Assembly: GCA_024641085.1 (NCBI GenBank)
Contig: JAHEDT010000024.1
Location: 1-42,907, forward strand
Direction: 5' to 3'
Source of the DNA: Geobacteraceae bacterium
GTDB taxonomy: Bacteria; Desulfobacterota; Desulfuromonadia; Desulfuromonadales; BM103
Length of the DNA stretch: 42,907 nt
This document shows, piece after piece, positions 1-31,930 of the stretch. The stretch's first letter is position 1; every line of letters begins with the position of its first letter. Made by a program: the position numbers and the translations under genes. The notes under the pieces were generated by a model that had not been told where the DNA came from, searched no databases, and saw only the letters and a program-made list of their open reading frames with translations.

Positions 1-16
1 TTTCACAAAAAATGCA
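1..16. repeat. Truncated copy of the GGGGTCAGGTCTACACA repeat at the window edge
   Basis: The first 16 bases, TTTCACAAAAAATGCA, are the exact reverse complement of 5139-5154, which lies in the right arm of the large palindrome at 5101-5171. The match stops at base 17. The window therefore probably begins inside a third copy of the repeat, whose diagnostic GGGGTCAGGTCTACACA part would lie just upstream. A 16-base AT-rich match could be chance, so confidence is moderate. Confidence 0.5.
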
Positions 17-150
17 ACACGAAACGCGACCAGGGACGTGCAACAGATTTTTAAAAGTTTTCTTTGACTGTGAATGCCTCGCACTTCTCCTTTGCAGCCT
101 TTCTGCTAAGATGAAGAGGCGCCTGGTATGGAGCAAGATCGTCGAGACAA

Positions 151-5097: not shown

Positions 5098-5174
5098 AAG
5101 GGGGTCAGGTCTACACATTTCACATTTTTTGCATTTGATGCATTTTTTGTGAAATGTGTAGACCTGACCCCTTT
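5098..5174. repeat. Large perfect palindromic repeat, REP-like, likely also a terminator
   Basis: A 24-base arm beginning GGGGTCAGGTCTACACA (5101-5124) is matched by its exact reverse complement at 5148-5171. The 23-base centre holds a second, nested stem (TGCAT/ATGCA, 5130-5142). The right arm ends in CCCCTTTT, so RNA from amtB would fold into a very long hairpin followed by a short U-run. One arm recurs exactly at 29713-29736 and a fragment lies at 1-16. I recall similar GGGGTCAGGTCTACACATTT sequences next to REP-associated Y1 (IS200-like) transposase genes in proteobacteria. No transposase is present here. Confidence 0.85.
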
Positions 5175-5415: not shown

Positions 5416-8058
5416 ATGGAATCTATTGTAGGCGTTTTAATTGGCATCCTTATTGGTATTGTGGCATTGGCAAGGGCCACTTCCGCGCATGTTAAAATCC
5501 ATCGACTGAACAGAATTATTGACGACCTGTCAAGTCAGCTGCGTGCAGAAAAAGAGGCCACAGCCAGGCAACGGCATGCCACACCCGTTTCGCAGCAGGA
5601 CGCCAGTGAACGCACGACAACTGAACAGGAGCCGGAAGAACTGAACTTCAGCTTCTCTCAACCCGGGCAAGGACGTGAAGGAGATGCTGCTGAGCACTTT
5701 GGACCCCCTCTGGCCGGTGAATTTCCAGGATTTAACCCCCTTAATTTTGTTGAACAGTTTAAAGCTCGATGGATGGTCTGGCTGGGCGGCCTCTGTATCA
5801 GCCTGGCGGGGGTTTTCCTGGTTAAATATTCAATAGATCAGGGATACCTCGGCCCACTCGCCAGGGTAACTCTGGGGCTTGTGACCGGCATCGTTCTGCA
5901 TATTGCTGCCGAATGGTGGCGAAGTAGAAACTCCGAACGCTACGGTTCGATTGCTGCCCTGGCCGGAGGCGCGAGCATCACCCTGTTCGCCGCCCTGCTT
6001 GCGGCCCTCCACCTCTATCACCTCTGGCCGCCGATAGTCGTCTTCGTTTGCCTGGCAGCGGTTTCCATCGCAACAATGTGGTTGGCACTGCTTCATGGTC
6101 CGATACTTGCCATCCTGGGGATACTAGGCGCTTACCTTGTCCCGGTTCTGGTCGACACCGGCAGCCAGAACATCAATGGTGCACTCCTCTACAGCCTGAT
6201 TATTTCAGCATCAGCTTTCTTGTTGATGCGCTGGGTTTATCGCAGCTGGCTCTGGTGGGGGACCATGGCCGGAGGCCTTTTCTGGTTTTCTATTGCGGTC
6301 TTGCAAAACCAGGCGGGGAGCTGGGTCGCGATTTACCTTACTATCTTCGGCTATCTGATGCTTGCCTTGCAGGGAGGAGATTTCCTCCTGCAAACTGCGA
6401 CAGCAAGGGCTGCAGGAGCACGGTTCTTTCGCGGTAAAGATATCAGTTTCCTGACCGATCACCGGTCCCTGAGCCTGCTGATACTGATCGCTGCTCAATG
6501 TTACGTGATGATTTCCAACCCTGACTGGCCTGAGGGAATCATGCAGTGGCTGCCGCTGGCTGTTCTGGTCCTGGTGTCCTCTCGCCACAATCAAAATCAC
6601 GAGATTCTCCCGTGGTTGGCACTGCTTGGTTATGCTGCCGCCATCATCGTCGCGGTCTCCCAGCAAAGCAATGCCTGGACTCGAGAGGCCTTCCAGGATG
6701 CCAACCAGCCTGCGTTCATGCTGCTTTTGCTGGCCATTGCCTTGACCTTTTCAGCGTTCTCTTTCTGGAATCGAAAGAAGGTCGCCAGTGCCAATCTGAA
6801 TGCCTCCCTGACATGGTTGGCCCCCGTTGTCTGCATGGCAGTTATTTACCTCTGTCAGAAGGAAATCCGCGGGGACCTTTCCTGGGGCCTCGGAGTTTTG
6901 CTGTTGGGAGCGATCTATGCGGTAGTTGCCGCGCAGGAAATGCAAAAGGGCAGGAAAGGCCAGAATACAGCCTGGCTGATCATTGCGACCCATGCCGCTT
7001 ATTCCATGGCGGCTACGATCATGTTCTCTCAGGCATCATTGACCCTTGCTCTTGCTCTCCAGGTTGTTTCTCTGGTCTGGATCAGTCAACGATTCGCGCT
7101 TTCGCATATTGATTATGTGATCAAGGCGGTTGTCGCTGTCGTTGTCATGCGCTTGACACTGAATCCCTGGTTATTCACATATCCGGATGAAGTCCACTGG
7201 TCGCTCTGGACATATGGGGGCAGCTTTGCCGCCGTTGCCACTGGAGCCTGGCTTTGCACGTCGAAAACCAACCTTCGGCCATGGCTGGAAGGTGCCGCAA
7301 TCCATTTGCTGATTCTCTTTCTGAATACCGAGTTGCGTTACTGGTTCTACGATGGACAAGTCTTTGCTTACCAATATTCCTTCAACGAGGCCGCAATCAA
7401 CACCAACCTCTGGGCGGCGATGGCGATGATTTACCTGCGTCGCAGCTACGTCGCGTTTTCGGCGCGGAAGGTCTATGAAATAGCGGCTTACGTCCTCATG
7501 TTTATGGCCGTACTAAACTTCGTGCGATTGCTTACCCTGGGCAACCCCCTGTTCGGTCATCAGGTTGTCAGCAGTCGCCCCATCTGGAACGGCCTGCTGG
7601 TCGCCTACGGCCTGCCGGTGCTGATGTGGTTGGTCTCCTCGAGGTATTTTGTCGAAAACTTCCGTAAAGGGTTTCAGCTCTTTGCCGTCTTCAGCTTCTG
7701 GTTTTTTGTTTCTGTCGAAATTCGCCATTTATGGCAGGGTGGTGAAAACCTACGTCTGACGATGCCTGTCAGTGACGGCGAGCTTTACTCTTATTCCTTA
7801 GCCTGGCTGTTAATCGGTGTTGCCGCGTTCGTTTTCGGTATTGTCCGGCAGCACAAAAATAGCTATCAGGCGGGGCTGGCTCTATTGGGATTGGTCATCG
7901 CCAAAATCTTTATCTTAGACATGGCTGACTTGCAGGGGATTCTAAGGGTCCTTTCGTTTATGGGCCTCGGCCTCTGCTTGCTGGGGCTTGCATTCCTGCA
8001 TCAGTACTTAGAAAGACATCGGGAGGCGGGCGGGGAAAAGGCAGCTGGTGAGCCATAA
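5416..8058 (+). CDS. DUF2339 multi-pass membrane protein
   Basis: This 880-residue protein has an N-terminal hydrophobic helix (about 4-20) and a charged, probably coiled-coil segment (about 28-55). A low-complexity polar linker runs to about 105. More than twenty closely packed hydrophobic segments then continue to a basic C terminus. The layout and the WMVWLGGLCISLAGVFLVKYSI opening of the membrane part are typical of DUF2339 (predicted inner-membrane proteins of unknown function). The ATG at 5416 has no strong ribosome site. The gene stands alone: the palindromic repeat is upstream and a convergent gre-like gene is downstream. No function can be assigned. Confidence 0.85.
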   Translation: MESIVGVLIGILIGIVALARATSAHVKIHRLNRIIDDLSSQLRAEKEATARQRHATPVSQQDASERTTTEQEPEELNFSFSQPGQGREGDAAEHFGPPLAGEFPGFNPLNFVEQFKARWMVWLGGLCISLAGVFLVKYSIDQGYLGPLARVTLGLVTGIVLHIAAEWWRSRNSERYGSIAALAGGASITLFAALLAALHLYHLWPPIVVFVCLAAVSIATMWLALLHGPILAILGILGAYLVPVLVDTGSQNINGALLYSLIISASAFLLMRWVYRSWLWWGTMAGGLFWFSIAVLQNQAGSWVAIYLTIFGYLMLALQGGDFLLQTATARAAGARFFRGKDISFLTDHRSLSLLILIAAQCYVMISNPDWPEGIMQWLPLAVLVLVSSRHNQNHEILPWLALLGYAAAIIVAVSQQSNAWTREAFQDANQPAFMLLLLAIALTFSAFSFWNRKKVASANLNASLTWLAPVVCMAVIYLCQKEIRGDLSWGLGVLLLGAIYAVVAAQEMQKGRKGQNTAWLIIATHAAYSMAATIMFSQASLTLALALQVVSLVWISQRFALSHIDYVIKAVVAVVVMRLTLNPWLFTYPDEVHWSLWTYGGSFAAVATGAWLCTSKTNLRPWLEGAAIHLLILFLNTELRYWFYDGQVFAYQYSFNEAAINTNLWAAMAMIYLRRSYVAFSARKVYEIAAYVLMFMAVLNFVRLLTLGNPLFGHQVVSSRPIWNGLLVAYGLPVLMWLVSSRYFVENFRKGFQLFAVFSFWFFVSVEIRHLWQGGENLRLTMPVSDGELYSYSLAWLLIGVAAFVFGIVRQHKNSYQAGLALLGLVIAKIFILDMADLQGILRVLSFMGLGLCLLGLAFLHQYLERHREAGGEKAAGEP

Positions 8059-29622: not shown

Positions 29623-29712
29623 TCTCCTGGCACATGTAAGGAAGTTTCGAGATAGTTTACCCGATAATTGCCAGGGAGCATATCATAACCCGGCGGCCCT
29701 GTCAGGATTGCT

Positions 29713-29736
29713 GGGGTCAGGTCTACACATTTCACA
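29713..29736 (+). repeat. Single-arm copy of the GGGGTCAGGTCTACACA repeat
   Basis: This is a 24-base exact match to the left arm of the palindrome at 5101-5124. There is no matching second arm nearby, and the sequence diverges immediately after. It lies between the metallo-hydrolase and MYG1-family genes. Confidence 0.9.
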
Positions 29737-29867
29737 AATTCAGTACCCGAAGCGGTTTTACAGCAGAATGCGTCGCGCGATGCCCATGGCCGTCACACTT
29801 CTCACCAGCCTGGAAAACTGCTATGGTTTATAGAAATAATCATTAACTCATAGGCAAAGACAACGCA

Positions 29868-31903: not shown

Positions 31904-31930
31904 GGGGACACTCAACAGGGTGTCCCTTTT
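31904..31930 (+). terminator. Intrinsic terminator
   Basis: GGGACAC and GTGTCCC form a 7-bp stem followed by TTTT. It lies 10 bp after the lipoprotein stop codon. Confidence 0.8.

Follow-up and report, generated by a model that had tools for sequence, protein, structure and literature searches.

The repeat that makes up the palindrome downstream of amtB in the stretch of DNA analysed here (the window, 42,907 nucleotides) is a terminal inverted repeat (TIR) of the TIRYT type, i.e. of the TIRtron class, and hence a repeat of a known kind, which for the window itself is a mostly sobering outcome. The unusual part is the conservation pattern of the individual arms of this repeat, which is unexplained. 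The explanation that best accounts for the observations as a whole, and which we regard as likely, is that the palindrome is a dimer of TIRYT TIRs moved in trans, that copies of these ends occupy old positions at which the arms are held, and that the copy at amtB doubles as a hairpin.

The window comprises the entire contig C140 of a draft genome (G000; 3,506,176 bases in 151 contigs). As the first-pass annotation of this DNA had noticed, the palindrome contains a perfect inverted pair: two exact 24-bp arms at 5101-5124 (forward strand) and 5148-5171 (reverse strand), perfect reverse complements of each other, face each other across a 23-bp spacer in an element of 71 bp (5101-5171), which three further, partly paired bases on either side extend to 5098-5174, where the resulting 27-nt arms match at 96%. 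The second, nested stem seen in its centre is present in the predicted fold as TGCAT/ATGCA with a 3-nt loop (5130-5142, pairing 5130-5134 with 5138-5142), and the whole palindrome is predicted to fold with -56.8 kcal/mol as RNA (z -12.6) and -31.9 as DNA (z -11.9). A 17-mer of the arm has three matches in the window at up to three mismatches, all of them exact (shuffle mean 0.06; none of 100 shuffles reached three). An exact single arm had correctly been placed at 29713-29736 on the forward strand; it has no facing partner within 160 nt and is the one unpaired arm that was folded, the region around it (29700-29786) folding no better than shuffles (z 0.64). Bases 1-16, which had been read as a third copy cut by the window start, are the reverse complement of 5139-5154, and window positions 1-121 are identical to the last 121 bases of contig C18, the neighbour found, though not necessarily the only one, among the contig ends compared. 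There GGGGTCAGGTCTACACA, which supplies the GGGG half, directly precedes the overlap (C18:34593-34609). The third copy, with its inner end at 1-16 on the forward strand, is an unpaired arm rather than a palindrome, and what cuts it is a break in the assembly at the window edge. No Rfam family reached its gathering score in the window, and five repeat loci gave two matches, both under the gathering score.

A genome search recovered two Y1 transposase genes in G000, both on contig C116. One of them, encoding P0001 (311 aa, with a Y1_Tnp domain), has an exact arm 54 nt ahead of its start, and its 3' end falls within a second exact arm in inverted orientation; the two exact 24-bp matches lie at C116:44307-44330 on the forward and C116:45315-45338 on the reverse strand. 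The statement that this core sits next to Y1/IS200-like transposases is thereby borne out, as is the remark that the window has none (no Y1 transposase was found in its contig), whereas the description of the palindrome as an orphan does not hold, the same genome carrying a transposase gene with these ends. Since P0001 is bracketed by exact arms, movement of the palindrome in trans is the natural reading. The pattern of autonomous IS200/IS605 elements, with several near-identical transposase genes, was not seen among the two Y1 genes, one of which has these ends while the other encodes a different protein. P0001 matches the Y1_Tnp profile with 43 bits against a cut-off of 23 and NF047646 with 63.3 bits, under its cut-off of 80, and inspection by eye revealed the motifs NHYH, LFQGR and YIHRNP. 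By these motifs it is a member of TnpA_Y1 subclass 2.1 (RAYT group 1), for which the subclass descriptions of Quentin et al. 2018 (PMC6006769) give an HuH motif NH[YF]H, FQ, Y[IV]HLNP and a C-terminal HTH resembling Bac_DnaA_C. P0001 has the NHYH, FQ and Y-I-H-x-N-P signatures, with R in place of L in the tyrosine motif, and its candidate C-terminal HTH gives a weak match to Bac_DnaA_C (18.4 bits, below the cut-off of 31.5). In its account of this subclass, the same survey reports no REP-like sequences beside subclass 2.1 genes; in contrast, the cognate repeat is abundant here.

According to Di Nocera et al. 2013 (PMC3733652), TIRtrons or TIRYT elements consist of a Y1 transposase gene with inverted repeats on either side, whose TIRs are dispersed as singles and dimers, and a GGGGWSAS motif is common to some, but not all, TIRs of the class. 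The gene for P0001 is likewise bracketed by long inverted repeats unrelated to GTAG REPs, GGGGTCAG in the arm fits GGGGWSAS, and the arms occur both as singles (44) and as dimers (26 paired arms of 70). The motifs together with these ends therefore place the repeat in the TIRtron/TIRYT class and not among GTAG REPs. REPINs combine two inverted units in one palindrome and depend on a transposase gene acting in trans. The palindrome here is similarly built of two inverted units with its transposase gene in trans, and this common logic of short intergenic palindromes and a Y1 gene elsewhere is what speaks for a canonical GTAG REP or REPIN of the E. coli or Pseudomonas type; however, the unit lacks GTAG and, where tested, a hairpin of its own. 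In all 26 paired arms something other than GT precedes GGGG (the foot mostly reads TA or TTA), so that this alternative is refuted for the palindromes, and with the single arm tested also failing to fold we give it practically no weight. Some unpaired arms inside a long repeat read GAGT-GGGG, a context in which GTGG arises without a hairpin. The interpretation offered by the first-pass annotation is thus upheld in its Y1-type core but not in the orphan status or in 'REP-like' taken as canonical REP. Text searches of the literature, including those with GGGGTCAG and GGGGTCAGGTCT, returned no earlier mention of the repeat among the matches listed, and off-topic matches concerned a sea-cucumber circular RNA (GGGGTCAGGTCT) and DinG-like proteins.

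Based on these observations we propose that the palindrome represents two TIRs of a TIRYT element joined in a dimer that lacks a gene and is non-autonomous; the one TIRYT gene found in G000 with such ends is on contig C116. Its Y1/HUH enzyme would recognise the ends as single strands and would have copied or moved them in trans, as the behaviour of IS200-type enzymes suggests. Such single-strand recognition is also reported for E. coli TnpA_REP (PMC6006769). This movement would have given rise to palindromes as well as to unpaired arms, almost all of them intergenic, and the arms would now be held by sequence-specific selection or by a homogenising process; selection, if it operates, would act via recognition by a DNA-binding protein, either TIRYT itself or a host protein.

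Of 136 genomes of the order, 114 encode relatives of P0001 at E up to 0.001, a count that covers any Y1 protein. Inverted repeats with a score of 14 or more were detected at 24 of 39 homologue loci, a set that includes P0001 itself, counts a G010 gene twice and contains some loci truncated by contig ends; GGGTCA is found in both repeats in 18 of these 24 and in at least one in 20. The remaining 15 loci have no inverted repeat at score 14, some of them because the contig ends there. Even at about 49-52% identity some homologues have repeats that still read GTCTACACATTGACA or GATCTTCACATTTGACA, and the 68% homologue from G010 has a nearly unchanged 3' arm, with no recognisable upstream arm within the 190 bases examined. 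The presence of GGGTCA-bearing repeats at P0001 homologues implies that the core travels with the transposase.

The second Y1/RAYT gene of G000 (214 aa; L031 1447-2091, corresponding to about C116:12410-13054) scores just over the NF047646 cut-off and is bracketed by a repeat of its own, GGGGACACTC-A6-GAGTGTCCCC. As the two Y1 genes are bracketed by different repeats, each has its own GGGG-type repeat. In the G000 stretches examined GGGGACACTC occupies 25 distinct sites on both strands (a palindrome counting twice), 22 of them with a facing partner. An exact GGGGACACTC at 31904-31913 of the window has an imperfect partner after it and may be a copy of this second family, although the 10-mer alone, at up to one mismatch, is not above chance in the window.

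Across the 3.5-Mb G000 draft the exact 17-mer occurs 71 times and its reversed control not at all. The 24-mer has 77 matches at up to three mismatches (65 exact, six with one, two with two and four with three mismatches); the core thus both lies just upstream of the window and recurs throughout the genome, contrary to the two outcomes that had been named as fatal to the first-pass reading, an upstream sequence lacking the core or a 24-mer found nowhere else. Collapsing copies identical over the arm and near flanks left 70 distinct arms, 26 of them in 13 palindromes and 44 unpaired. The exact palindromes are all 70-71 bp long, with 22 arms in 71-bp and four in 70-bp ones. For 43 of the 44 unpaired arms (the 44th lies too close to a contig end for a partner test) even the closest facing partner within 160 nt differs at 6-9 of 17 positions, as in shuffled DNA. 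In the same-genus genome G004, 24 of 27 unpaired arms were tested, one having a partner with a single mismatch and the others partners with 7-9 mismatches. Since partner mismatches in unpaired arms are at the level of shuffles, copies generally come either as full pairs or as singles.

Using a home-made codon-usage gene caller and counting arms with enough flank, we found 62 of 64 arms in G000 and all 39 in G004 to be intergenic. Their neighbouring genes are tandem, convergent or divergent for 31, 18 and 6 arms in G000 and for 19, 16 and 4 in G004, the remaining G000 arms having no called neighbour on one side or lying inside a gene; these are raw counts without a genome-wide baseline, in which both arms of a palindrome count and sites recur between the genomes. 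In several cases a called gene runs into the arm by a single base, its TAG stop codon being made up of TA and the arm's first G. By hand count, of the two ends of an arm it is the GGGG end that lies closer to a gene in 19 of 21 unpaired arms in G000 and 16 of 21 in G004; this count excludes long-repeat, inside-gene, TIRtron and one-sided cases, and shared sites make the two genomes non-independent.

A family search with the exact 17-mer detected it in two of 22 genomes, namely G000 and G004 (47 arms). The 16-mer GTCTACACATTTCACA is present in 10 of 134 genomes of the order, with more than two copies only in G000 (67), G004 (40) and G017 (7), and the two palindromes read in the last of these show a variant core, GGGGTCGCGTCTACACAT. 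Alignment of flanks positioned 33 of the 47 G004 arms where a G000 arm lies, 14 of them single in both genomes and 19 paired in both, with flanks 79-92% identical between the two. A large part of the arm family is therefore old. This weighs directly on the proposal of a recently and actively spreading MITE whose copies are identical because they are young, a proposal to which the 65 exact copies among 77, the two examined arms present in one genome only and the 37 of 70 G000 arms without a counterpart found in G004 would lend support. Shared positions with drifted flanks make identity by youth unlikely for the shared copies, so that selection or homogenisation remains. Furthermore, C21 and C116 bear nine arms apart from those of the TIRtron, and for eight of these, all but C21:5959, G004 has a counterpart containing the exact 17-mer, though the G004 stretches compared were obtained via exact arms, which favours finding counterparts. 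Youth is thus largely refuted for the shared copies, and for the family at large we consider it highly improbable. The arms without a counterpart found number 14 of 47 in G004 and include in G000 the window's three and the TIRtron's two; most of them may be either absent or unassembled, the G004 assembly being 87% complete. On the orthologous contig of G004, the 5.9-kb G000 stretch that includes the TIRYT element is replaced by about 1.3 kb of different DNA. The arm found only in G000 (C21:5959) and that found only in G004 (C265:11434) both have messy junctions, and as no insertion was recovered for which both the empty and the filled site are clean, mobility is something that we infer. For the window's own copies, the relatives that carry amtB have different DNA downstream of it, and neither amtB nor the genes on either side of 29713 had a DNA match in G004, hence these copies too offer no clean empty site.

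The conservation of the arms was assessed on 15 unpaired pairs (one added by eye at a contig end) and 19 paired pairs from 10 palindromes, compared without gaps from the arm, so that indels depress the outer values. In the unpaired pairs sites 1-17 are identical at 255 of 255 positions and sites 18-24 at 104 of 105, as against 160 of 405 in the outer 27 nt (-30 to -4) and 100 of 330 at sites 39-60; the corresponding values for the paired pairs are 323 of 323, 122 of 133, 226 of 513 and 314 of 418. Over the shared pairs as a whole sites 18-24 differ at 12 of 231 positions, and the 20 nt outside the arm are identical at 301 of 660. The invariance of sites 1-17 is partly a matter of sample selection, because copies were collected by the exact 17-mer, whereas sites 18-24 were not so selected. 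Two checks suffer less from this selection, namely the comparison of the nine arms on C21 and C116 described above and a scan with the 24-mer over 129,001 bases (three whole contigs, the window, C116 and C21, all chosen because they bear arms). The scan yielded 14 matches without mismatch, none at 1-7 and three at 8; the reversed pattern gave two at 7 and two at 8, and for three shuffled patterns the number at 8 was 8-10. Against strict invariance, 12 of the 77 genome-wide matches have 1-3 mismatches. One palindrome has changed in both arms together at site 20 (G004 L154 versus G000 L013) with pairing preserved, and pairing may matter locally. Unpaired arms are nevertheless at least as conserved as paired ones (one difference in 105 versus 11 in 133 at sites 18-24), and because they are so without a hairpin, pairing cannot explain the family-wide constraint. 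That 24 bp at fixed places, paired or unpaired, hardly drift is a genuine puzzle.

This bears on the idea that the sequence is kept because the palindrome serves as a transcription terminator or stabiliser of mRNA ends. Its very stable predicted hairpin, the excess of convergent over divergent contexts (by raw counts without genome baseline) and the occurrence of some 3' hairpin at every amtB locus inspected speak for such a role; yet 44 of 70 arms are unpaired, folding of one of these (29713) gave nothing more stable than shuffles, and unpaired arms are no less conserved than paired ones, so that as the cause of the conservation we hold it to be improbable. At amtB (Ammonium_transp, PF00909; 3806-5077, forward strand) the stop codon is 23 bases from the first arm, and a gene for a DUF2339 membrane protein follows the palindrome at 5416-8058 on the same strand. 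The 24-bp perfect stem is followed by TTTTAACT, whose Ts can also pair with the bases preceding the stem. A scan for intrinsic terminators made no call at 5098-5174, a result that formally counts against termination but is uninformative given the scan's loop limit of 8 nt. A hairpin of at least 10 pairs starts within about 70 nt after amtB at seven of seven loci (the window, G005, G003, G002, G019, G020 and G021), one sequence being common to G019-G021 and the others differing; this figure stands without control genes, and 3' hairpins are a common feature of gene ends. The palindrome at amtB is probably also the 3' hairpin of the transcript, in a slot filled by unrelated hairpins in relatives, and its use as a terminator, which had been suggested for it, is plausible but unproven. 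In G005, from another genus of the same family, a different GGGG-type palindrome follows amtB, GGGGACACAT-AAGTA-ATGTGTCCCC (L096 2837-2861).

The strong conservation of unpaired arms could alternatively mean that the arm is primarily a binding site for a host protein, a regulator or a chromosome-structuring protein, and that TIRYT merely ends in it. G004 and G017 keep arms while no close TIRYT was found in either (the best P0001 match in G004 has E 1.6e-28, and the protein search of G017 gave none; both assemblies are 87% complete). Nonetheless, related GGGGTCA repeats form the ends at TIRYT homologues across the order, the core thus coming with the transposase, and among 134 genomes only G000, G004 and G017 have the inner 16-mer in more than two copies; we therefore deem this alternative unlikely, though a serious contender. 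Returning to the TIRYT-derived dimer, we raise as a tentative proposal, which may well prove wrong, that transposase-end repeats have been taken over as genus-wide sequence-specific DNA sites, the 24-bp arm being preserved by selection, even when unpaired, at dozens of constant intergenic positions; such selection would not depend on the hairpin and possibly not on the transposase either. REP singlets are described as usually decaying remnants in PMC8049555, in contrast to the unpaired arms here, which are the majority of arms found and are conserved; if the proposal is true, the rule would fail for the TIRYT class. The passages on TIRtrons in PMC3733652 do not treat the feature by which the present repeat differs, namely many copies at positions common to two species with arms that hardly vary. 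The benefit of REP-like repeats and Y1 transposases to their hosts is an open question in the field. In the present case arm sequence, hairpin and transposase are separable, as there are unpaired arms, paired arms and a genome (G004, 87% complete) with arms in which no close transposase was detected; the conservation pattern makes it directly testable whether the repeat or only the hairpin is selected.

Several minor features of the arms were also observed. A variant core, GGGGTCGCGTC, has two copies in G000 (C30:39696 and C78:42632) and is the form of both G017 palindromes read (L174 and L175), one of whose four arms has a further change; it possibly represents a sister subfamily. An outer motif, TTSTTGA-N14-TTA, lies directly upstream of GGGG in a minority of arms (G004 C145, C265, C193, C38 and others) and, with one mismatch, on the outer side of the 3' arm of the TIRYT gene. 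In G000 this pattern has 20 matches at up to two mismatches versus 22 for the reversed control, and seven at 0-1 mismatch, six of them at arms. Finally, a dispersed repeat of about 620 bp is represented in G000 by 17 matches to its 29-mer at up to three mismatches, on contigs C5, C16, C20, C29, C67, C78, C95, C98, C100, C117, C119, C127, C133, C142 and C151 (for example L057 around 1090-1106). By hand count an arm follows 73-124 nt later in 15 of its 16 testable copies (that on C117 is cut by the contig end), and in the L057 copy the halves flanking the arm are inverted over 96 bp with 80% identity.
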